20,313 nt of DNA, taken from an uncultured Oscillospiraceae bacterium. GTDB taxonomy: Bacteria; Bacillota; Clostridia; Oscillospirales; Oscillospiraceae. The stretch is taken from positions 1 to 20,313 of the forward strand of contig CAKTZP010000022.1 in NCBI GenBank assembly GCA_934636045.1, in the 5' to 3' direction. Below are positions 1-8,277 of this stretch, in pieces. The notes beneath the pieces were generated by a model. That model was given only the letters and a program-made list of their open reading frames with translations. It made no database searches and was not told the origin of the DNA. The translations under genes were made by a program, and so were the position numbers. Positions within the stretch are counted from its first letter, which is position 1. Each line of letters starts with the position of its first letter.

Positions 1-1222
1 TGTGGTATTTGCATTCGCCGGCAAATATCCGCTTGTTCTGCTGATCTACGGCCATGACATCAATTTCTGTATCGCCGTCAAAATCATTCAGCCAATAAGA
101 GCCGATGCGGGAAAGGGTAAATGACACCGTACCGTCTTTGCAGCGCTTTGCAAAGATGTCCTTGCAGATGTCCTCATAAGCAAACGCCACGAATTTCTCA
201 ATGAAGTCCTTTTGGATCTCATCCAGAACGATCTGCATATTGTCCAATTCCAGCTCGCCCTTGTACGGATACACATAGCGAAACCAAAAGCGGATAAAGT
301 TGTCTGCGATAAAGTACAGACCTTTTCTGGATTTCTCCGGGTTCTTTTCGGTGACGGGTGTCCGTTTTTCTACAAATCCCAGTTCCGAAAGCGTAGACAG
401 ATACGGCGTCAGCGCTGAGGTTTCCTGTCCCAGCACACCGGCGATCTTCCCCAGCTTATGGTTTCCATCTGCAATCGCCTTAATGATGGAGAAGTAGTTC
501 ACCGCCGTCATGGACTCGCTTTTCAGCAGGAAGTTCGGCTCCTCATACAGAAAGCCGTTTTTGGACAATACCACGTCCTTGATCTGGTCCAGCAGATCCC
601 GGTCATCCTGGAAGAACTCCAGATATTTCGGCACACCGCCGGTCACGGCATACTGTTCCACGGCCAGATCAAAGGGCCGCTTCTGAACGGCATAAATATC
701 TGTGAACGGCAGCGGAGCCAACCGCATCTGCGAGGTTCTGCGTCCGTACAAAGGGCTGTCATAGGAAAGTGCGTGCTTCTGCATCATGCCGATCAACGAT
801 CCGGAAAGGATCAGCATAATGTTGCTGTCCTTGAGCAGTTCATCCCAGGCATTTTGCAGAATGGAGGGGAAGGCTGGATTGGTCTTGACGAGATAGGGAA
901 ACTCGTCGATCACCAGCACCTTCTTTTGTCCCGGCTCATAGTCAGCGATCACTTGGAACAGATCCATCCAATCGGAAAAGGACGCCTTTTGCAGTAGGCT
1001 GTTTTTCGTCGTTCGTGCAATCACTCCGGCAAGGCGCTTCATGCTCTGCGTTTCAAGCTCTTCCGTTGCAAGGAAGTAAAACGCCGTTTTTTGTTTCAAA
1101 AATTCCTTGATCAATGTCGTTTTTCCGACTCTGCGGCGACCATAGATCACTACAAAGCTGCCGTCATGCTCGTATTCTGCGTTCAGTTTGGCCAGCTCCG
1201 TTTTTCTGCCGATGAATTTCAT
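1..1222 (-). CDS. AAA ATPase with C-terminal DUF234 nuclease-like domain (3' end cut by window edge)
   Basis: The 407 visible codons start at ATG 1222 behind a GAGGGGG ribosome site. The protein opens MKFIGRKTELAKL. Walker A is GRRRVGKTT (residues 28-36) and Walker B is VLVIDEF (102-108), as in the archaeal-type ATPase family (ATPase_2) found widely in gut Firmicutes and Bacteroidota. A winged-helix-like stretch follows at roughly 250-300. The visible end carries EIDVMA (386-391) and GECK (402-405), the D...ExK pattern of the DUF234 restriction-endonuclease-like fold. About 50-70 residues are probably missing beyond the left edge. The family is frequent on mobile DNA. Its physiological role is unsettled, and defence or toxin-like roles are only suspected. 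It is divergent from the adjacent RecG-like remnant and has its own very strong promoter. Confidence 0.88.
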   Translation of the reverse strand, partial: MKFIGRKTELAKLNAEYEHDGSFVVIYGRRRVGKTTLIKEFLKQKTAFYFLATEELETQSMKRLAGVIARTTKNSLLQKASFSDWMDLFQVIADYEPGQKKVLVIDEFPYLVKTNPAFPSILQNAWDELLKDSNIMLILSGSLIGMMQKHALSYDSPLYGRRTSQMRLAPLPFTDIYAVQKRPFDLAVEQYAVTGGVPKYLEFFQDDRDLLDQIKDVVLSKNGFLYEEPNFLLKSESMTAVNYFSIIKAIADGNHKLGKIAGVLGQETSALTPYLSTLSELGFVEKRTPVTEKNPEKSRKGLYFIADNFIRFWFRYVYPYKGELELDNMQIVLDEIQKDFIEKFVAFAYEDICKDIFAKRCKDGTVSFTLSRIGSYWLNDFDGDTEIDVMAVDQQNKRIFAGECKYH

Positions 1223-1270
1223 AGGCTCGCCCCCTCGTATGATAAACTATTTTATGATAATCTCGTTTAT

Positions 1271-1299
1271 ATTATACACAAAGGACGCAGAAATGTCAA
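1271..1299 (-). promoter_or_regulatory. Consensus sigma-A promoter of the DUF234 ATPase gene
   Basis: Read on the minus strand, TTGACA (1299-1294) and TATAAT (1276-1271) are separated by exactly 17 bases, a perfect match to the sigma-A consensus. It lies about 49 bases upstream of the ATPase ATG. Two direct copies of TATGATAA (1238-1245 and 1253-1260, 15 bp apart) sit between the -10 box and the ribosome site and could be an operator. A perfect promoter with downstream repeats suggests that the gene is held under repression; that is inference. Confidence 0.85.
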
Positions 1300-1311
1300 T
1301 CCCTTATCGGA

Positions 1312-1767
1312 ATGCTGGATCCGGCGCAATTCCGACCGTTTTCCAAAAACCCACCGATCGCAAAGGTGTTTCGCGAGGTATCCCTTGCCGACGAACTCGG
1401 CTCCGGTATGCGCAACACCTATAAATATACCAAGCTGTATTCCTGCGGAGCGCCGCAGTTCATCGAGGGGGATCTGTTCCGTACCATCATTCCGCCGAAG
1501 CCGATCGCGACCGCCAAGGTCGGTCCGGCGTCCGCGCAGGATACCACGCAAGATACCGTGCAGAATACCACGCAGGATCGTGAGCAAACGCTGTTGGACT
1601 ATTGCGCTGTTCCTCGTTCCCGCGAAGAAATCCAAAGGCATATTGGGATCGCAAATCGAGAATATTTCTGCCAAAGCATTCTGAATCCATTGCTTGATTC
1701 GGGCAAATTAAAACGGACGCTTCCCGATAAGCCAAGCAGCAAAAATCAAAAATATATCAAGGCATAA
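1312..1767 (+). pseudogene. C-terminal remnant of a RecG-like/AlbA_2 ATP-binding protein
   Basis: The 151-codon frame matches the C-terminal third of the ATP-binding proteins often labelled ATP-dependent DNA helicase RecG-like or AlbA_2 (Schlafen-type) regulators. KNPPIAKVFRE, LADELGSGMRNTYKYTK and PQFIEGDLFRTIIP are its hallmark segments. They are followed by a TTQD/TVQN repeat linker (about residues 76-90) and a winged-helix tail ending KPSSKNQKYIKA. Full-length members run about 450-550 residues. Here the entire N-terminal AlbA_2 domain is missing, and the sequence just upstream of residue 1 is the promoter of the divergent ATPase gene, so the break lies near 1300-1312. The first codon is probably an accidental start. 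A perfect terminator still follows it. I call it a pseudogene with no expected enzymatic role. Confidence 0.8.
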
Positions 1768-1906
1768 CCAAAGCCTGCGGAACTCGCTCCGCAGGCTTGT
1801 TTTTTGAGGTTGCCGCTTTTGATTTCGGCATAGCCCGGATGCCGCCCGTCCCGGCGGCCGAATCGTTCGGCTTGCTGCTCCAAAGGATGTGTTTTGGCTT
1901 CGTCAT
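1757..1906 (-). CDS. Possible 49-residue coupled ORF, likely a truncated third cassette gene
   Basis: The ORF starts at ATG 1906 inside the ATGA stop overlap of the DUF7007 gene and reads MTKPKHILWSSKPN at its start. I do not recognise it. The coupling suggests that a real third gene once stood here. The last third of the frame runs through the stem-loop that terminates the oppositely oriented RecG-like remnant, so its C-terminus is probably not authentic. It could be the 5' stub of a gene lost when the two segments were joined, or chance. Confidence 0.3.
   Translation of the reverse strand: MTKPKHILWSSKPNDSAAGTGGIRAMPKSKAATSKNKPAERVPQALVMP
1771..1805 (+). terminator. Rho-independent terminator after the RecG-like remnant
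   Basis: AAGCCTGCGGA (1771-1781) pairs with TCCGCAGGCTT (1788-1798) across a 6-base loop and is followed by GTTTTTT. This 11-bp stem with a U tract begins 3 bases after the remnant's stop codon. Confidence 0.92.
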
Positions 1907-2295
1907 CTTTCGTTTCCTCGATCTTTCGGTCGCTCGGCGGAGCGGCGCGCTTGTCTTGCCTGCCAATAGTCCGGATGCCAGCGCTGCAGGCTGCGGTCGA
2001 TGCAGGCCTCGTACGCACCGGGCGGGAAATAGCGGTCGGTTCGGGGCGAAATCAGGCCCCGGTCCAGCAGCTCGCGCAGCGCCACCGGCGCATCGCAGTC
2101 CTCCTCGAAGTGCAGATACCCGCCTTCGCAGAAGCCAACGGCCCGCGCCTCGGCGGACAGGAACTGCTCGGCCGCATCCAGCCGTACCATAATTCCGCCG
2201 TGGCTGGCGGTGCTGACCTCGTACACGCCGGGGCAGAGCAGGGCGCAATGCTCGACCGTACCCCATGGGGAAACTGTCGGTGCGCCGCCCATCAT
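1903..2295 (-). CDS. DUF7007-like mobile-element protein
   Basis: This is a 130-residue soluble protein. The start chosen is ATG 2295, which overlaps the TGA of the upstream PAPS-reductase-like gene as ATGA and lies behind AAAGGAG. The much longer open frame extending further upstream is only a shadow of that gene. The N-terminal core reads SPWG...PGVYEVSTASHGGI (about residues 8-32) and continues to a YLHFEEDCDAPVAL segment, the layout I associate with DUF7007 proteins of Firmicutes plasmids and integrative elements. The C-terminus is basic. Function is unknown. Overlap coupling implies co-expression with, and possibly a shared task with, the PP-loop enzyme upstream. Confidence 0.72.
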   Translation of the reverse strand: MMGGAPTVSPWGTVEHCALLCPGVYEVSTASHGGIMVRLDAAEQFLSAEARAVGFCEGGYLHFEEDCDAPVALRELLDRGLISPRTDRYFPPGAYEACIDRSLQRWHPDYWQARQARRSAERPKDRGNER

Positions 2296-3098
2296 CGTTC
2301 CCGCTCCTTTCCCGCCGCCGCAATGGTCAGCTGCCGCGCCTCCGCCGCAAAGCGCTGCTCCAGCCGCTCCACGGTCCAGTCCTTTTTGAATTGCCCCAAG
2401 GGATTGGAGCCGAACTGCTCCAATGCGCGTTTGTCCATCTCCCGCAGCCGCGCCCACAGTTCGGGATGGTGCTGCCGGAGCTTGCGCAGCGCCCCGATGC
2501 CCTGCAGCGGGCAGCACCAGCAGGAGCAGCGGCGGTAGATTTGATACAGCCCGCCAAAATCGTAGCCCCGGTCATAGCATATTTGCAGCGCTTTCTGTTC
2601 CGTAATGCCCCATTCCACCAGCGGATAGCGTTCGTTTTTGATGCGCTTCGGCTCGTCCGCGGCGATTCCGACATAGCTGACCGTCGTATATTGTCCCTTC
2701 AGGCGATTAAGTTCGCGGCGGATCAGATGCGTTTTGAGCTGACCGGTGCACCAGCGCACGCGGACGCCGGGCCAGCCGTTCCCGTAAAGCGAGGTGCCGC
2801 GCTGCTGCCGCCGCTCGATGCTGGACGGGCGCTGCTTCTTTTCCTCGAACATCAGCCATTCAAAGCCCTTCGGGTGGCGCAGCCAAGACAAATGCAGGCC
2901 GCGCTCCCGATACAGATGCTCGTCCAGCTTGTGAAGATGCTCGTACATTTCCGGGAATTCCATCCCCGTATCCGCGGTCAGTACCGCGTCGATCGGCAGC
3001 CCGCGCTCCATCATGAGCAGCAGCATCGCCGTGCTGTCCTTTCCGCCGGATAACGAGACGGCGTGAAAGATTTTCTTTTCTTCCGATTGAGTGTTCAA
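2292..3098 (-). CDS. PAPS reductase-family PP-loop protein (mobile-element type)
   Basis: This 268-residue protein of the adenine-nucleotide alpha-hydrolase fold carries the PP-loop SLSGGKDSTAM (SGGKDS at residues 17-22). It also has DTGMEFPEMYEHL, RWCTGQLK and a cysteine cluster RRCSCWCCPLQ near residues 189-199. That is the layout of phosphoadenosine-phosphosulfate-reductase-like proteins carried by phages and conjugative elements, rather than of assimilatory CysH. No sulfate-assimilation partner is nearby. An in-frame ATG lies at 3104, but AGGAGG would be only one base from it. TTG 3098 sits 8 bases after that ribosome site and is the better start. The gene ends in a 4-base ATGA overlap with the DUF7007 gene. 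Chemistry on a nucleic acid or a tRNA thiol is possible, but the substrate cannot be read from sequence. Confidence 0.85.
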   Translation of the reverse strand: MNTQSEEKKIFHAVSLSGGKDSTAMLLLMMERGLPIDAVLTADTGMEFPEMYEHLHKLDEHLYRERGLHLSWLRHPKGFEWLMFEEKKQRPSSIERRQQRGTSLYGNGWPGVRVRWCTGQLKTHLIRRELNRLKGQYTTVSYVGIAADEPKRIKNERYPLVEWGITEQKALQICYDRGYDFGGLYQIYRRCSCWCCPLQGIGALRKLRQHHPELWARLREMDKRALEQFGSNPLGQFKKDWTVERLEQRFAAEARQLTIAAAGKERER

Positions 3099-3126
3099 GA
3101 TCATTCCTCCTTGCTTTTGGCATAGA

Positions 3127-3156
3127 AAACGGGCGGCATGGGATTGCCGCCCGTTT
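3127..3156 (-). terminator. Stem-loop between the 28-residue peptide gene and the PAPS-like gene
   Basis: AAACGGGCGGCA (3127-3138) pairs perfectly with TGCCGCCCGTTT (3145-3156) around a 6-base loop. It follows the small membrane peptide's stop by 12 bases and precedes the PAPS-like start by 28. On the minus strand the stem ends in TTT then TCTATG, so the U tract is short. On the plus strand a looser GCGTGTTTTGTTTT follows. Confidence 0.7.
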
Positions 3157-3168
3157 GCGTGTTTTGTT

Positions 3169-3255
3169 TTACTTTTTGTTCCTGATTTTCAGGAAAACCA
3201 GCGCGCCGATGATGAAAAGCACCATCGCGATGCCGATGATCGTCTTTGCCTCCAT
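3169..3255 (-). CDS. 28-residue single-pass membrane peptide
   Basis: The ORF starts at ATG 3255 behind AAAGGAGG with good spacing. It begins MEAKTIIGIAMVLFI, runs through about 19 hydrophobic residues (roughly 5-23), and closes with the basic KIRNKK tail, which predicts an N-out/C-in single transmembrane helix. A longer open frame extends upstream but has no ribosome site and has composition unlike protein. Short membrane peptides of this kind are common on Clostridia conjugative elements and also occur as type I toxins; neither assignment can be decided here. It is followed by a perfect stem-loop. Confidence 0.6.
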   Translation of the reverse strand: MEAKTIIGIAMVLFIIGALVFLKIRNKK

Positions 3256-3694
3256 TGTTGCCGCCCTCCTTTCTTTTTCGGCTGGTAACAGGTAGTAACG
3301 GGGGAGAGGTGTGGAGAGGGGGCCGCTGCATCTGCCCGACCAAGCATCAAAAAACGGCAGACCTCCCCCTTGGCGGAAAATCCCACCGTCGCCGCCCCCG
3401 ATTTCCTGCGGTAAATTTTTCCGGGGGGACACGGGAAGCGAACCACCATCCCCCACCCGCCCTCCGGGCGTCCCCGGATTGGGAGGATTGATGATACGAG
3501 TCCGCGATGAGGGGCATTGCTATCATACTGCACGGCGCCGAGAGTGGGCAGCGCAATATTGCCTATAATTCTGATTGCTTCACGCCGACATTCGCATTCC
3601 TCGGCATCGTTGTATTGACATTGACACACGCTGTCCGTTATACTAAATATGTCAATATGTTCAGCTATGTAATTACATAAAGAGAAATTGAGGT
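3256..3694. other. Gene-poor leader between divergent genes
   Basis: I see no convincing coding sequence in this stretch. Positions 3,265-3,500 are unusually G-rich on the minus strand and form the leader of the 28-residue peptide gene, including a small CGCCC/GGGCG hairpin near 3,460-3,473. The right-hand 100 bases turn AT-rich and hold the promoter and inverted repeat of the KAP gene. Open frames here give low-complexity Gly/Arg/Pro products typical of non-coding GC-rich DNA. Confidence 0.5.
3615..3656 (+). promoter_or_regulatory. Probable promoter and inverted repeat of the KAP NTPase gene
   Basis: TTGACA occurs twice in tandem (3615-3620, 3621-3626). The first is 18 bases from TATACT (3639-3644), a good sigma-A arrangement. 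ATTGACAT (3614-3621) is repeated in inverted form as ATGTCAAT (3649-3656), bracketing the promoter, so a repressor could bridge or occlude it. The gene starts about 45 bases further on. Confidence 0.6.
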
Positions 3695-3700
3695 GTGCAA

Positions 3701-5071
3701 ATGGATAGGCTCGACATTCTTAACCGGGATGAATATGTTGAAAGACTGATGAAAATCACACAGAGCATTTCAGAGGCAAAGGCATCCACTTGCTTCGCGA
3801 TAAATGGTCAATGGGGATGCGGAAAGAGCTTTGTCCTAGATATGTTTGAGGAAAAGGTCAATGCGATTCGATCCGATGAGAGCGAAGGCAGCGGATATTT
3901 TGTCGTCCGTTATAATTGCTGGGAATACGACTATTATGAAGAACCCCTCGTGGCGATTGTTGCCGCCATGATTCCCATGATTGAAGAAAAAACAAAAATG
4001 TTTCCAGATAGCAAGGAAAAACAAGAAGTCTTAGGAATGTTAAAGGCGACCGGTGTTGCGCTGTTGTCTATGGCGAATTCCTTTGTAAAAACACGAACAG
4101 GGCTAGACATTTTCGGTGCTTATGAAACTGTGTGCAACGGGAAAAAGGAAGGTAGTGCAGCATTTGCGAACGCTCACGAGTTCGATGCCTATTTCGGATT
4201 CAAAAAGGTGATGGCCAAGCTCAAAGAGCTCTTGGCCAAAATTGCAGAGGAGCATACCCTCATTCTTATTGTAGATGAGTTGGACCGGTGTGCTCCGGAA
4301 TACGCCGTCAAAGTTTTGGAGCGCCTGCATCATTTGACGGAAAAGCAGCCCAACACCATTACTATTATCGCAATTGACAAACCGCAGCTTGTTGCCAGCG
4401 TACAGAACTTATTCGGCTTCGAAAACCCGGAAAAGTATCTCGAAAAATTTATCAGTTTTGAAATAATGCTGGATACCGGCACGGTTTCGGAACGGATAAC
4501 AGAAAAACACGCGGACTATATCGCCATGTTTGACAAAGATCTGTTCCCGTTTGATGATTCCGTAGAGGAATGTTTACAGGCCATTTTTAAAGACATTGAC
4601 GTCCGCACACAAGAACAGCTCGTGAAAAAAGCAACGATTGCACATAAACTACTTTTTAAGGAGAAACGAGATTATTCGTTTATGTGTATGGAACTGTTGA
4701 CGGCCGTGATGGTTTGCGTACATAAGTATTACGAATACTTTAATAGCAGATCATTCAGCACAAACCCACTTTCCGACGTATTTGTTAAAGGTCGTAAGGT
4801 TATTCCAGCGTTTGCCGATTATTTCAGGGAAAAGTTTGAATCGCTTGATCTGGCAAGCCTCCAATCTTCTTCATCTTTATATGTCCCATCACGGCATCAT
4901 AGATTACCAAATACGCCAAGTTTGTATGGTGTGATTATATTCACATGGTGGCAGATGCATAAGAAGAAAACTGCAGTCTTTTCTCAATCATTTGTTGATC
5001 TTCATGAACCGAGTAGTGAAAATCATAAAGAACTTCTCAAATTTGCTGAGACAATTGATCTCATGCAGTAG
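3701..5071 (+). CDS. KAP-family P-loop NTPase
   Basis: This is a 456-residue protein. ATG 3701 is preceded by GAGGTG at a 5-base spacing; a GTG two codons upstream overlaps that ribosome site and is unlikely. Walker A is GQWGCGKS (36-43). The Walker B and KAP signature is LILIVDELDRCAPEYAVKVLERL (from about 187), with the DELDRC segment typical of the KAP family named after Kidins220/ARMS and PifA. KAP proteins often carry transmembrane helices inserted in the NTPase domain; only a weak hydrophobic stretch near 115-128 is seen here, so this looks like the soluble bacterial type. F-plasmid PifA excludes phage T7, and several KAP NTPases occur in defence loci. A defence role here is inference. 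It stands alone, with no partner gene adjacent, and is visibly more AT-rich than the core genes. Confidence 0.87.
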   Translation: MDRLDILNRDEYVERLMKITQSISEAKASTCFAINGQWGCGKSFVLDMFEEKVNAIRSDESEGSGYFVVRYNCWEYDYYEEPLVAIVAAMIPMIEEKTKMFPDSKEKQEVLGMLKATGVALLSMANSFVKTRTGLDIFGAYETVCNGKKEGSAAFANAHEFDAYFGFKKVMAKLKELLAKIAEEHTLILIVDELDRCAPEYAVKVLERLHHLTEKQPNTITIIAIDKPQLVASVQNLFGFENPEKYLEKFISFEIMLDTGTVSERITEKHADYIAMFDKDLFPFDDSVEECLQAIFKDIDVRTQEQLVKKATIAHKLLFKEKRDYSFMCMELLTAVMVCVHKYYEYFNSRSFSTNPLSDVFVKGRKVIPAFADYFREKFESLDLASLQSSSSLYVPSRHHRLPNTPSLYGVIIFTWWQMHKKKTAVFSQSFVDLHEPSSENHKELLKFAETIDLMQ

Positions 5072-5237
5072 AAGGAAATACCGGCGAAATCATCGTTTGT
5101 GATGGTGCGCCATAGGCTAACGGTGGCAACGTCAGGCTGGCGCAGTCTCAGGTGGCTGAGATATATTAAATGTACTGTTCAAACGTTGTATGACATATTG
5201 TTCTCATTCATAATGGTGGAAAACTTGACGAAACCGC

Positions 5238-5262
5238 AACCTGTCGAGAATTCCGACAGGTT
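5238..5262. repeat. 9-bp inverted repeat
   Basis: AACCTGTCG (5238-5246) pairs with CGACAGGTT (5254-5262) around AGAATTC. No U tract follows on either strand. Its purpose is unknown. Confidence 0.6.
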
Positions 5263-5313
5263 CGCCAAACTGGAGTCTGGCAGGTGAACGCCTTTTCGAA
5301 AAGTGTGGCCTAG

Positions 5314-5349
5314 GAAAAAGCAGTTGTTCGGAAATTCCGAACAACTGCT
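5314..5349 (-). terminator. Near-perfect palindrome acting as a minus-strand terminator
   Basis: A 31-base palindrome at 5319-5349 has 15-base arms (AGCAGTTGTTCGGAA and its complement) around a single central base. Read on the minus strand the stem is followed directly by TTTTT (5318-5314), the form of an intrinsic terminator. The plus strand lacks a T tract. It would end leftward transcripts, although the nearest supported minus-strand frame ends more than 200 bases to the right. Confidence 0.7.
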
Positions 5350-5548
5350 ATAGGATCAGTCAGAGCAGGTATTGGCAGCGACCGCTGATTTTACACAGCG
5401 CACACTACAAGAATGACTCATTTGGTGGAAACACCAGCGCCTGTGTGGTGCATAGTCCTCCAATTTTTGCCATCCTGTAATTGAAGTTAGGCCCTTTCAA
5501 AAGTTAACCTCATTTTAAAAATCATTTCGTTTTACCATGATTTCAAAA

Positions 5549-5586
5549 ATGAGTTCAAGTTTTCTGGCCCAAAAAGTTGAACTCAT
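5549..5586 (-). terminator. Stem-loop at the end of the RecG-like tail remnant
   Basis: ATGAGTTCAA (5549-5558) pairs with TTGAACTCAT (5577-5586), and the stem can be extended by T/A pairs after one mismatch. On the minus strand the stem is followed by TTTTG and begins inside the last codon and stop of the remnant at 5583. It shares its outer bases with a second inverted repeat (5509-5525 with 5537-5553), so the two structures exclude each other. Confidence 0.6.
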
Positions 5587-5755
5587 GTTGTTCGCTTCAA
5601 TTCATACTTTTTATCCGCGCCCTTGCCGAGGATTTTGATCAGTCCGACCTCGTTCATTTGGCGGGTGAGAAGATAGGCTCTGGTTTTTTGATATTCAGCA
5701 ATTCCTGCAAATCTTCGTCGCTGATTTCACCATATTCGGCCAGATACGCTGTAAG
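5583..5755 (-). pseudogene. Decayed winged-helix tail of a second RecG-like/AlbA_2 protein
   Basis: Directly after the nucleotidyltransferase stop, and in the same frame, the minus strand reads TAYLAEYGEISDEDLQELLN. It resumes after a one-base shift as KTRAYLLTRQMNEVGLIKIL and ends ...KKYELKRTT. Together this is the C-terminal winged helix typical of AlbA_2/RecG-like ATP-binding proteins. The shift falls in a run of six A residues near 5681-5690 (seven would restore the frame), so either a real frameshift or a sequencing slip is possible. The N-terminal 400 or so residues are absent. A terminator-like stem-loop overlaps the stop. Confidence 0.62.
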
Positions 5756-6082
5756 TCATGCGATAGTATTCAGCTTCACTCTTTCTTTTAATACCGTTGC
5801 CGTAAAATCGGAATCGCTTTCCGCGGTTGACGGCTGCATAATGGAGCTGACGGTAATCAGGTCAATTGCTTTGCCGAAGGTATCTTCCAAGTCGCAGTAA
5901 AGCGCACCTAAGCGCAGCAGCGAGGTAAGTTCCGTCCCGGTCGTGTCTACCAGAAAATCCATGTCGCGGTCATCCGTGGCCTCGCCTCTGGCGTAGGAAC
6001 CGAACAAATACAGGGCGGGGATGCCATATTTCTTGATGAGCGGTGCAGCGCGCTGCTGAATTTCGTCAAAGGAATATATCAT
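5756..6082 (-). CDS. MNT-type minimal nucleotidyltransferase
   Basis: This 108-residue protein starts at ATG 6082 behind GAGGAGGG. It carries the polymerase-beta-like motif GSYARGEATDDRDMD (28-42) with metal-binding Asp40 and Asp42 and a third Asp74 in KAIDLITV. Its size is normal for MntA-like proteins. Such enzymes usually pair with a HEPN toxin and silence it by adenylylation, but no HEPN frame (RX4-6H) is present on either side. The usual C-terminus (a hydrophobic strand ending near IYG) is replaced by VKLNTIA, and the reading frame runs past its stop into the RecG-like tail. This suggests that the 3' end was altered by recombination and that the toxin partner was lost. It may be an orphan antitoxin. 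Confidence 0.8.
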   Translation of the reverse strand: MIYSFDEIQQRAAPLIKKYGIPALYLFGSYARGEATDDRDMDFLVDTTGTELTSLLRLGALYCDLEDTFGKAIDLITVSSIMQPSTAESDSDFTATVLKERVKLNTIA

Positions 6083-6162
6083 GTTTCGCCCTCCTCAATT
6101 CAGATTTGCCAAAAAAGCAATTGGTTTCGTATCATGCAGAATAACAGTTTTTCATAAGCAAA

Positions 6163-6206
6163 CACATTTTTCCGGCATTTTCTATGCTGGATTCGCACAT
6201 TTTTCC
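6163..6206. repeat. Two direct copies of CACATTTTTCC upstream of the nucleotidyltransferase gene
   Basis: Identical 11-mers lie at 6163-6173 and 6196-6206, 33 bases apart, in the upstream region of the minus-strand nucleotidyltransferase gene. They could be operator-like, but no clear promoter can be fixed relative to them. Confidence 0.4.
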
Positions 6207-6237
6207 AAATTTCTTTCCTTGGACGTAGGAGCACAAA

Positions 6238-6351
6238 GTGAAAATTCACTCCGCATTCACTTTCGAGGGTGAAAATTCACCCTTCGTTCACTCTAAACAG
6301 TGAAAATTCACTCTTCATTCACCCTCCGGAGTGAATTTTCACTCCGGAGGG
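6238..6351. repeat. Four palindromes at an exact 31-bp period downstream of parB
   Basis: GTGAAAATTCAC begins at 6238, 6269 and 6300, and its inverse GTGAATTTTCAC at 6331, spaced exactly 31, 31 and 31 bases. The 19-base intervals are also related and contain a further TTCAC half-site. The second copy is extended to an 18-base palindrome (6266-6283) and the last to a 30-base palindrome (6322-6351) with CCCTCCGGAGTGAA arms. The array lies 20 bases past the parB stop. Three helical turns per unit puts every site on nearly the same DNA face, as in iterons or partition centromeres. Confidence 0.85.
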
Positions 6352-6370
6352 CATCCGATTTCTGCCGCTA

Positions 6371-7237
6371 TCATCGCCGCTGCTCCCGTTGGCGGGTTTT
6401 TTGCCAGTTGGCTAGGAGTTTGAAGATCGTTTCTTCCATGCGCTGCGGGGTGTAGGAGCGGGGGAAGTAGGGTTTGATGCGGTCCATAGGGAGGGTCAGG
6501 TTCCAGTTTTCCGGTTTTTTCTGCTCCATCATGATGGCGAGCATGGAGTCGTCGGTGAGCTTGCCTGCCTGCGAGAGGCGTTTCATGCGCTGCGCCTGCG
6601 AGAGGGAAGGGGTCGCCTGTTCGCTGTCGATGGTGTCGAGGAGCAGCTTTTGCTCCGCGGGCTTCAGGTATGACAGCTCCACCGCAGGCGTCATGCCGAT
6701 TTTGCCGTCGTCCACCATCTGCTGAAGCTCCGGCTGCAGCTCGGTGAGGCGGATATAGCGCTGGATCTGGCGGCCGCTCTCGCCGGTCGTTTCCCCGACT
6801 TTGTCCGCTGCCTCCAACTTCCCGACAAGTTGTCGGGAAGTTAAATCGCGTCGCGCTCCCTGCCGCTTGATTGCTTCGAGCTTCATCTTATATGCCTTGG
6901 CCTTCTCGCTCGGCAGAATGTTTTCCCGCTGGATGTTGCTGTCCACCAGAATGATTATCGCGGCATCGCGATCAAGATTCCGCACGATGACCGGCATGGT
7001 CCTGCACCCCGTCAGCTCGCAGGCGCGCTTTCGCCGATGGCCGGAAACCAGCTCATAGCTGCCGTCGTCCAGCGGCCGTGCGAGCGCCGGGACAAGAATG
7101 CCGTATGTTCGGACGCTTTCGGTCAGCTCCGCCATTGCGGCATCGTCGCGCACGCCGAACGGATGGTCAGGGAACGGGCGGAGTTCCGCCAAATCGATTT
7201 CCCGGAATGTGAATTTTTCCTGCAAAGGCTGTTTCAT
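6371..7237 (-). CDS. ParB/Spo0J/Noc-family partition protein (mobile-element type)
   Basis: This 288-residue protein starts at ATG 7237 behind GAGGAGG. The N-terminal ParB/Srx CTPase domain contains FGVRDDAAMAELTESV, YGILVPALARP and SGHRRKRACELTG (about 65-77), followed by the arginine-containing NIQRENILPSEKAKAY box (101-116). A central helix-turn-helix region lies at RQIQRYIRLTEL and MTPAVELSYL. The C-terminus (LPMDRIKPYFPRSYTPQRMEETIFKLL) is the form I know from Clostridia conjugative elements rather than chromosomal Spo0J. No ParA gene is adjacent, and no canonical chromosomal parS site is visible. Two unusual structures go with it: a 27-base palindrome inside the coding sequence and the 31-bp repeat array just downstream. 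It probably serves partition or regulation of the element. Confidence 0.9.
   Translation of the reverse strand: MKQPLQEKFTFREIDLAELRPFPDHPFGVRDDAAMAELTESVRTYGILVPALARPLDDGSYELVSGHRRKRACELTGCRTMPVIVRNLDRDAAIIILVDSNIQRENILPSEKAKAYKMKLEAIKRQGARRDLTSRQLVGKLEAADKVGETTGESGRQIQRYIRLTELQPELQQMVDDGKIGMTPAVELSYLKPAEQKLLLDTIDSEQATPSLSQAQRMKRLSQAGKLTDDSMLAIMMEQKKPENWNLTLPMDRIKPYFPRSYTPQRMEETIFKLLANWQKTRQREQRR
6816..6842. repeat. Perfect 27-base palindrome inside parB
   Basis: The 13-base arms AACTTCCCGACAA and TTGTCGGGAAGTT flank a single central G (6829). It encodes LTSRQLVGKLE of ParB, between the ParB box and the helix-turn-helix. A ParB-binding or autoregulatory site is possible. Confidence 0.8.
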
Positions 7238-7265
7238 TTTTGCGCTTCCTCCTCGAATGTTCTGA

Positions 7266-7434
7266 CGGAAAAGCCTTGAACCGGCCGGTGCACTTTTACC
7301 TACTTAGCATACTTTTACAATACTTTTTGTATAATAGGACTGCCGCTCGGCTTTTCTGCCAAAAAACCGCAAAAAATCGCCGAAACCCTTGATTTTCAAG
7401 GCTTTGCCGTGTTGTCCCTATTATACCTCCTGAC
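7266..7434. other. Putative right end of an integrated element, with nested inverted repeats
   Basis: The region lies between the truncated spoIVB frame and parB. CGGAAAAGCCTTGAA (7266-7280) faces an inverted copy with one mismatch at 7395-7409. GTATAATAGG (7329-7338) faces a perfect inverted copy at 7417-7426. CCTTGA/TCAAGG at 7387-7401 makes a further small palindrome. Homology to SpoIVB stops at 7435. Together this looks like an attachment-site arm region for recombinase or excisionase binding. No integrase gene is adjacent, so it would be the integrase-distal end. Confidence 0.5.
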
Positions 7435-8277
7435 CATGCCCTGCACGATGCCGCCGGTTTTTTGCAGGAGGACGGGATCGGTCACCTCCAGAAGGAGGTT
7501 GCGGCCGCGCGCGTCATCGGAGCGGATCGCCGTGATGCGCACAGCGTATTCTCCGACCGATGAGCCCTCGACATTGGAGCGGATCGTCGCCGCGCCGGTA
7601 TGCACCTGCCCGGGCTTCGCGACCGGGACCTCCGCGCCCTCCGCCGAAGGAAACGTGCCGAAAATGCCGCAATCGGTGTTCTTTAAAATTTCACCGCAAG
7701 CGCCTCCGCGACGGATTGCTCCCTGCAGCGCGCCGGCCGCGCCCTTTTCTCCGCGCGTGACCGACGCGACCTGCGAGGCCAGCACCGTTCCCGCGCGCAT
7801 CGGCAGCAGCTCTCCGGAGGCGCCGTTGTTCACGCCGTGCCCCAGCGCACCGAACGTCCCGTCGGACGGATCGTAATACGTCACCGTGCCGATCCCTGTG
7901 ATGCCGTCGCGCACCAAAATACCCAGCCGCCAGACGCCGCCATCCTGCCGCGCCGCAATTTGAAAGGTCTTTTCCTTGCCGTCACGCCGCACGGTCAGCC
8001 GCAGCACCCGCCCGGCCGAGCGTTCCACACGCGATACGATGTCCGCGACGGACGCGACCGGCACGCCGTCGATTTTCTGCACCAGATCGCCACGGCGCAG
8101 GCCGGCGCTCTCCGGCGCCGGGTCGGAAAACTCAACGATCGCCACCCCCTCGAGCTTCAGCTCCAGTCCGATCGTGTTTCCGCCCGGAATGACCGTTTCC
8201 GGCGCGGCCGCCCACGCGCCGCCCGTCAGAAGCAGCAGCGCCAGCACCAACGCCGTCATTTTATTAAACAATTTCAT
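7396..8277 (-). CDS. spoIVB: SpoIVB-type S55 serine peptidase, cut at the catalytic-serine motif
   Basis: The start chosen is ATG 8277 behind GGGGAGG; the longer open frame upstream covers only leader. A signal or anchor segment (residues 1-24, MTALVLALLLLTGGAWA) is followed by VIPGGNTIGLELKLEGV, a PDZ domain (about 45-110) and the S55 domain with GALGHGVN (His148), a conserved Asp267 in LEVTDP, and LQKTGGIVQGM (271-281). In SpoIVB this last segment continues SGSP, whose first Ser is the catalytic residue. Here it turns into VRRYNRDNTAKP and stops. The protein therefore keeps His and Asp but lacks the nucleophile and about 45-60 C-terminal residues. SpoIVB is secreted from the forespore and triggers pro-sigma-K processing. 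As it stands the product should be inactive unless the inserted DNA excises. It could also be a paralogue of the main spoIVB. Confidence 0.85.
   Translation of the reverse strand: MKLFNKMTALVLALLLLTGGAWAAAPETVIPGGNTIGLELKLEGVAIVEFSDPAPESAGLRRGDLVQKIDGVPVASVADIVSRVERSAGRVLRLTVRRDGKEKTFQIAARQDGGVWRLGILVRDGITGIGTVTYYDPSDGTFGALGHGVNNGASGELLPMRAGTVLASQVASVTRGEKGAAGALQGAIRRGGACGEILKNTDCGIFGTFPSAEGAEVPVAKPGQVHTGAATIRSNVEGSSVGEYAVRITAIRSDDARGRNLLLEVTDPVLLQKTGGIVQGMVRRYNRDNTAKP

Follow-up and report, generated by a model that had tools for sequence, protein, structure and literature searches.

In the stretch of DNA analyzed here (20,313 nucleotides, hereafter the window), the sporulation gene spoIVB, without which spore formers do not complete their spores, is broken at its active-site codons by an integrated mobile element. 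Taken as a whole, we consider it very probable that the window holds the left attachment site (attL) of a probably conjugative element lodged in an attB site within spoIVB, that a trio of serine recombinases mediated the insertion, and that excision restores the gene. The left junction is observed in the window; the far end of the element, its excision and the timing of that excision are what we infer.

The open reading frame at 7396-8277 on the minus strand (293 aa, with its ATG at 8277) matched Peptidase_S55 in a Pfam profile search (PF05580; E value of 4e-48, profile positions 3 to 175 of 210) and also TIGR02860, the NCBI SpoIVB model, with an E value of 3e-59 and an alignment reaching position 361 of 402, a match under the cut-off of that model. 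The frame is SpoIVB until GIVQGM (residue 281), where, inside a single codon, it gives way to VRRYNRDNTAKP followed by a stop. The 5' fragment of the gene, codons 1 to 281, occupies 7435..8277 and the chimeric tail with its stop, coded by the end of the element, 7396..7434, both on the minus strand. The intact continuation is provided by homologue P0001 (319 aa, 99% identity across 96% of the query), which reads on as SGSPILQDGRLVGAVTHV (SGSP...VTHV); because it continues uninterrupted, a near-identical strain has the site empty. The first residue missing after the break falls at the position of the catalytic serine, Ser378 in Bacillus subtilis SpoIVB (PMC6581720), and the insertion lies within the coding sequence of a sporulation gene. 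The initial annotation had described a switch from SpoIVB to foreign residues within one codon at the catalytic-serine site, which the profiles, P0001 and the recurrence of the junction all confirm.

The element arm of attL covers 26 bp (7409..7434, minus strand) and includes TATAATAGGGACAACAC, a 17-mer also present at the spoIVB junctions of other species; it matched once in the window, where shuffling predicts 0.01 matches at up to 3 mismatches. Directly next to it, at 7435..7436 on the minus strand, lies the presumed crossover dinucleotide TG, which would be common to attB and attP and is present in attL, attR and the intact genes of relatives. A second copy of GTATAATAGGAC, inverted, is found at 7326-7345, ∼65 to 80 bp inside attL, and genome G300 has a comparable extra arm close to its own attL.

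The same break was found elsewhere. Eight of 120 listed SpoIVB homologues (120 of 2456 found) lacked SGSP: P0002, P0004 and P0119 carry a ..YNRDNT.. tail past GM that is similar to that of the window, and P0008, P0014 and P0019 terminate exactly at GM, via a stop or a contig end. The remaining two appear to be a frameshift (P0007) and something resembling adapter read-through (P0011). In three genomes (G589, G591, and G413) a TGA immediately follows the ATG, which offers an explanation for proteins ending at GM. Short SpoIVB proteins in relatives free of any element would have spoken against the proposal; the three truncated homologues with element-like tails are not of this kind.

Among GTDB contigs the junction pattern was present at nine loci, seven of which read spoIVB GIVQGM|; one further locus breaks off at the junction, its bin (G006) having an intact spoIVB as well, and one (L008) lies at another site in G002, whose spoIVB is intact. 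A looser pattern allowing up to 2 mismatches, which passes over more diverged arms, matched in seven of the 394 genomes scanned from the G009 order, five times at spoIVB and in two genomes (G652 and G551, three places) outside it; the reversed pattern gave no match among the 394 genomes. Altogether, the same-codon break, which we call class A, is present in 12 genomes besides the window (G001, G003, G004, G005, G007, G008, G009, G300, G589, G591, G344, and G413), with G591, G344 and G413 placed in the class by the attL junction pattern alone; some of the truncated homologue proteins may derive from these genomes. We take the family of G004 (strain 1xD42-67) as Oscillospiraceae and the order as Oscillospirales. 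A second, intact spoIVB, which would make the broken gene a decayed paralogue, was also sought, and the nine class A genomes searched, mostly drafts, gave no PF05580 match over the full length.

Since the same junction recurs in other homologues and assemblies, chance or an error in a single contig is excluded as its source. An assembly chimera or frameshift in the window contig is almost certainly not the explanation and is already contradicted by the same junction in other assemblies, including a single-contig chromosome. The element-arm sequence TATAATAGGGACAACACATTT also occurs outside spoIVB, at L008, L113, L114 and L117, suggesting a related family whose target is different or less strict; these occurrences count against the main explanation.

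The missing 3' end of SpoIVB, which the initial annotation had expected together with a large serine or tyrosine recombinase gene, is present in relatives. Of the nine genomes carrying the junction pattern, seven have PF05580 5' halves that end at profile position 175/176 and four have 3' halves starting at 175; both halves are also present in G300 and G589. In all, the 3' half was located in six class A genomes (G004, G007, G008, G009, G300, and G589). Only in G300, a single contig of 3,156,307 bp, are the halves on one contig, where they start at 1,092,036 and 1,187,235 and are separated by an insert of 94.7 kb; in the other five they are on separate contigs. Joined in silico, the halves gave an in-frame gene in all five cases tried (G300, G004, G009, G007, and G008), coding for 338 to 379 residues and reading GIVQGM|SGSP. 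This rejoining is seen in relatives only, the window's own 3' half lying beyond the window. G008 has a further spoIVB fragment, L029, at the start of contig G008:C152, in which TGGIVQGMSGSP is kept and preceded by unrelated DNA; this may be a third break ∼8 codons upstream or a contaminant contig.

In class A relatives attL typically reads GGNATG|GTAGTGAGTTATAATAGGGACAACAC and attR typically GTGTTGTCCCATATTGACATCACTCGTG|AGC, with TG common to attL, attR and the intact genes. Put together, the two ends of the element make up an imperfect palindrome of 54 bp centered on the TG core. The two attP arms, inverted repeats about TG, match at 14 to 17 of 26 positions, while shuffled arms have means of ∼7 and maxima of 15 to 16; the symmetry exceeds the shuffle maximum in four of five sites, G004 and G007 having identical sequences, and in G300 it is 14/26, under its shuffle maximum of 15. 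The attP of a serine integrase usually has such inverted repeats about its core (PMC5595907). The excised form was not encountered: the attP and attR patterns had no match in viral contigs, PLSDB gave no good match (one weak 25-base match), and attP was found in none of 10 genomes. The 17-mer arm did match six loci in viral contigs, which look like chance and contain no spoIVB.

We propose the following scheme for the insertion. The DNA coding GIVQGM|SGSP in spoIVB serves as attB and the window junction is attL; three tandem large serine recombinases at the opposite end, as in relatives, would join attP to attB at TG, splitting the gene directly ahead of the catalytic serine codon. At the far end of the window's element we would expect the recombinase trio and the 3' half (SGSP...THV), the latter following directly on an arm that resembles GTTGTCCC...TG. 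In the integrated state the cell would make only a dead SpoIVB of 281 residues plus 12 foreign ones, so that integration would be harmless in growth yet block late sporulation, and excision would restore spoIVB to the base.

All five elements that can be read at attR (G004, G007, G009, G300, and G589) have three tandem recombinases of ∼550 residues each at that end. The first of them is cut by the contig end in G007, and in G589 one ∼1-kb gene lies between the trio and attR; the contig of G008 stops within 100 bases at attR, and the trio is not readable there. No recombinase was recognised in positions 1-7395 of the window, whose attR and recombinases fall beyond it, the trio being known from relatives. 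The domains of the G300 trio are Resolvase, Recombinase and a zinc ribbon, the zinc-ribbon match of the third member being under the cut-off. Orthology within the trio follows position, with identities among G004, G009 and G300 of 59 to 60% for the first recombinase (R1), 48 to 50% for the second (R2) and 48 to 52% for the third (R3), and G004 and G007 are 99% identical. A search of 394 genomes of the order, with up to 3 candidates scored per genome, gave R3 relatives of at least 48% identity only in G004, G009 and G589, each beside a spoIVB 3' end, the next best being 36%. No such relative was found in G591 (best E value of 4e-53) or in G344 and G413 (none at E 1e-40), and the 18.6 kb inside the attL of G591 hold no recombinase; the trio of these three genomes may lie at the unseen end, may have gone unscored or may be absent.

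Directly upstream of the trio, a gene for a DUF6870 protein was present in four of four elements (G004, G009, G589, and, at L046 13860-14066, G300). It is only a candidate directionality factor, because DUF6870 genes are also found near other recombinases. The DNA upstream of the trio in the same four genomes has a conserved sigma-A-like promoter, TTGACA-17-[GC]ATA[AC]T, and this vegetative-type promoter speaks weakly against excision timed to sporulation. Judged by consensus motifs of the sporulation sigma factors, no convincing sporulation promoter precedes the trio in these four genomes; two sigma-K-like motifs in G009 and G589 overlap the conserved promoter and were taken as chance.

Two other kinds of insertion affect spoIVB. 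In class B, seven of the 300 genomes sampled from the G004 family have a PF05580 match split near profile positions 190 to 196. Six of the seven carry GAVTHV| at the 5' junction and five have a 3' half that begins again at THV, the remainder not being recovered; THV corresponds to the motif described as TXV in SpoIVB (PMC6581720). A single recombinase of ∼510 to 525 residues ends at attR in four of the seven (G241, G161, G297, and, by eye, G266); in G225 and G051 no recombinase was noticed next to attR. The two halves are 27.5 kb apart in G241 (L048/L049) and 16.8 kb apart in G161 (L050), the other class B loci being L092-L101. We rejected the idea that this is the class A element, given the different site and a recombinase only 21 to 26% identical to the trio. 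Class C comprises 8 of 300 genomes with a full-length spoIVB and an extra 3' fragment starting at profile position 175 (L051-L059; G097, G149, G202, G254, G103, G179, G168, and G070), preceded by a similar arm, for example TGTTGTCCCTAATGACAATCACTCGTG; G157 is perhaps a ninth, weaker case. Six of the extra 3' ends lie 0.4 to 3.6 kb downstream of spoIVB, and those of G168 and G070 are on another contig. The intervening cargo includes, for example, a cyclase, a DUF1275 protein, or a TetR-like regulator paired with a short-chain dehydrogenase, and no recombinase was noticed in these cassettes. Several displaced 3' copies, some of them decayed, are present in G097, G254 and G168. This fits serial gene-restoring insertions or cassettes bringing a new 3' end, much as SCC elements bring a new gene end at rlmH. 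Serial insertions, if that is what they are, would imply selection for an intact spoIVB. Recombination of attB with an arm plus 3' end would, however, pair sites that serine integrases reportedly do not combine (PMC3783163).

The counts of 7 and 8 in 300 rest on 258 matching genomes, 50 of which were re-examined; of the remaining 208, G004 is split and the others were taken as intact on a single match of about E 1e-66 or better in a scan giving its best 150 matches, and since a split gene with an unassembled half could hide among the latter, both counts are lower bounds. The 3' halves are undecayed in 6/6 class A genomes and in five of seven class B genomes, the other two having been missed by the regular expression, and ∼5 of 11 displaced class C copies are intact as judged by eye; as a test of relative age, this comparison is suggestive only.

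In the window, the first element gene inside attL codes for a ParB-family protein (6371..7237, minus strand; ParB_N, E value of 6e-16), and G300 has a ParA together with a ParB_N protein in the corresponding place. Beyond it the cargo includes an MntA-like nucleotidyltransferase (5756..6082, minus), a KAP P-loop NTPase corresponding to the candidate defence protein PDC-S20 (3695..5071, plus; PADLOC E value of 1e-148), an SspD-like protein resembling PAPS reductases (2292..3104, minus), a DUF7007 protein (1903..2517, minus) and an AAA ATPase with DUF234 (PDC-S27; 2..1222, minus), which extends off the window. The genes for PDC-S20, PDC-S27 and the SspD-like protein are candidate defence genes. 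No conjugation genes were seen in the window. At the attL end of the G004 element, the only one given a profile check for this, a TraG-like ATPase and a coupling protein were found, and the element is probably ICE-like, that is, integrative and conjugative.

Comparison of hosts and elements points to mobility across species. For G001 and G007, identity is 62% across 500 host bases but 100% across the initial 64 bases of the element; for G004 and G007 it is 65% in the host and 98% at the element end, and the attR side is 98.7% identical across 5062 bp, mostly element. Because element ends are 98 to 100% alike while hosts are 62 to 65% alike, each of these pairs appears to represent recent entries into different hosts at the same site. 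The element of the window is more distant (66 to 70% across its initial 64 bases), and the ends of its arms are conserved.

The hosts have kept sporulation genes: SpoIVA was found in all 15 genomes with a split spoIVB (eight of class A, seven of class B) and SASP in 12, the class A subset accounting for 8/8 and 7/8. Hosts with a split spoIVB can probably finish spores only after removal of the element. We regard it as most likely, with about half of the probability, that excision is a low-level vegetative event of the ICE type and that only the excised subpopulation completes spores. Reversible insertion with basal excision is favored because of the sigma-A-like promoter, the missing circle, the forespore origin of SpoIVB, which in B. 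subtilis is a forespore product (PMC6581720) secreted to and acting in the intermembrane space (PMC3808539), and the regularity that known intervening elements are almost always in genes of the mother cell, which is finally discarded (PMC6957869).

An unlikely alternative is that the insertion simply abolishes sporulation of the host and that such lineages are short-lived. Some insertions do look recent, with ends 98 to 100% identical against 62 to 65% for the spoIVB region of the host, and the site is empty in P0001 and occupied in the window although the two proteins are 99% identical, but the break recurs in at least 12 genomes, SpoIVA and SASP are retained in the class A hosts as given above, the 3' halves are undecayed, and serine-integrase elements such as gin (PMC5595907) are reversible by kind.

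The initial annotation had raised the possibility of a skin-like element. Its first part, an integrated element at the catalytic-serine codons, stands and is strengthened by the 3' halves and serine recombinases of relatives; its second part, a switch timed to sporulation, stays conjectural, as an insertion that is reversible but under no developmental control is no less probable given the sigma-A-like promoter, the lack of an excised form and the look of a mobile ICE. We hold it quite improbable that the element is excised in the mother cell during sporulation, as for skin, with SpoIVB reaching the intermembrane space from there and the spore chromosome keeping the element. Retention of SpoIVA and SASP and the undecayed class A 3' halves agree with such excision, and the intermembrane space, the site of SpoIVB (PMC3808539), would border both cells, but the conserved trio promoter is sigma-A-like and spoIVB is a forespore gene in B. 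subtilis. A split sigK-like gene in some of the same genomes, for example G300 and G004, might also be counted in its favor; both pieces were found in 4 of 15 spoIVB-split genomes, with partial pieces, some at contig ends, in four more. However, the gene was likewise split in 4 of 15 controls with intact spoIVB, chosen for long contigs, and co-splitting of the two genes is not convincing. No sigK-like gene attained the cut-off of TIGR02846. Split genes of this kind in the same family include those of G300 (L102, 13 kb), G004 (contig G004:C10), G087 and G041, and that of G300 contains an insert of ∼11 kb coding for a type I restriction system and a single serine recombinase.

Excision could also take place in the forespore or before septation, with the circle entering the spore as a ParAB plasmid and re-integrating after germination. 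The ParB gene just inside the attL of the window, the ParA and ParB_N protein of G300 and the synthesis of SpoIVB in the forespore of B. subtilis (PMC6581720) are in line with this. ParAB genes are common on mobile elements in general, though, and no circle was detected in viral contigs, PLSDB or 10 genomes, leaving the idea decidedly unlikely. A stronger version, in which spoIVB is a developmental rearrangement locus where excision in sporulation rebuilds the forespore protease and the circle rides into the spore by its own partition system before re-integrating after germination, we rate as very unlikely; if true, the chromosome reversibly rearranged would be the one that is inherited and not that of a discarded mother cell.

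Several known systems come close to the favored reading, an ICE-like element with basal excision. The gin element in gerE of Bacillus cereus ATCC10987 (PMC5595907) is likewise not a phage, has three serine recombinase genes, splits a sporulation gene, uses inverted-repeat att sites and restores the gene by precise excision. It differs in that its target is a mother-cell gene, that it has no conjugation genes, and that two of its recombinases form an operon with girC apart, whereas the three of the spoIVB element are adjacent; gin has been shown by experiment to excise during sporulation, while the spoIVB element is known from sequence, in one case with conjugation genes. Streptococcal ICEs with a serine-integrase triplet (PMC4701971) share the positional orthology of external, middle and internal recombinases, which our relatives also display in the three large serine recombinases found together at one element end, and these ICEs have a conjugation module, 2- to 8-bp repeats and insertions inside genes; the targets it names for triplets are mutT, traG and hsdM, with no sporulation gene among them. 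The skin element in sigK (PMC6957869 and PMC5025042) is also a serine-recombinase element in a late sporulation gene, but one of the mother cell, where its excision was shown experimentally. SP-beta in spsM (PMC4191935) and yin in yabG (PMC10747680) are alike in site-specific insertion into a sporulation gene that excision restores, yin existing in mixed integrated and circular populations with one recombinase discussed; they differ as a prophage or prophage-like elements with other target genes. No description of an element in spoIVB was found among the best-matching titles and abstract openings (up to 15 to 20 for long lists) of the open PMC literature, and the word spoIVB does not occur in the main text of a survey of serine recombinases (PMC10083194).

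With two integrase families and two functional motifs hit, the catalytic serine and TXV, spoIVB is an apparent integration hot spot, and the trio is a candidate tool for recombination aimed at spoIVB. The recurrent splitting of spoIVB goes against the rule of mother-cell genes (PMC6957869), because the B. subtilis product is made by the cell that is to become the spore, the forespore, and this makes the rule testable. Either the mother cell supplies SpoIVB, or the element survives excision by way of the spore, or the hosts give up sporulation in exchange for the element. An ICE able to turn sporulation off and on would be ecologically relevant, provided that sporulation is important in the transmission of these bacteria.
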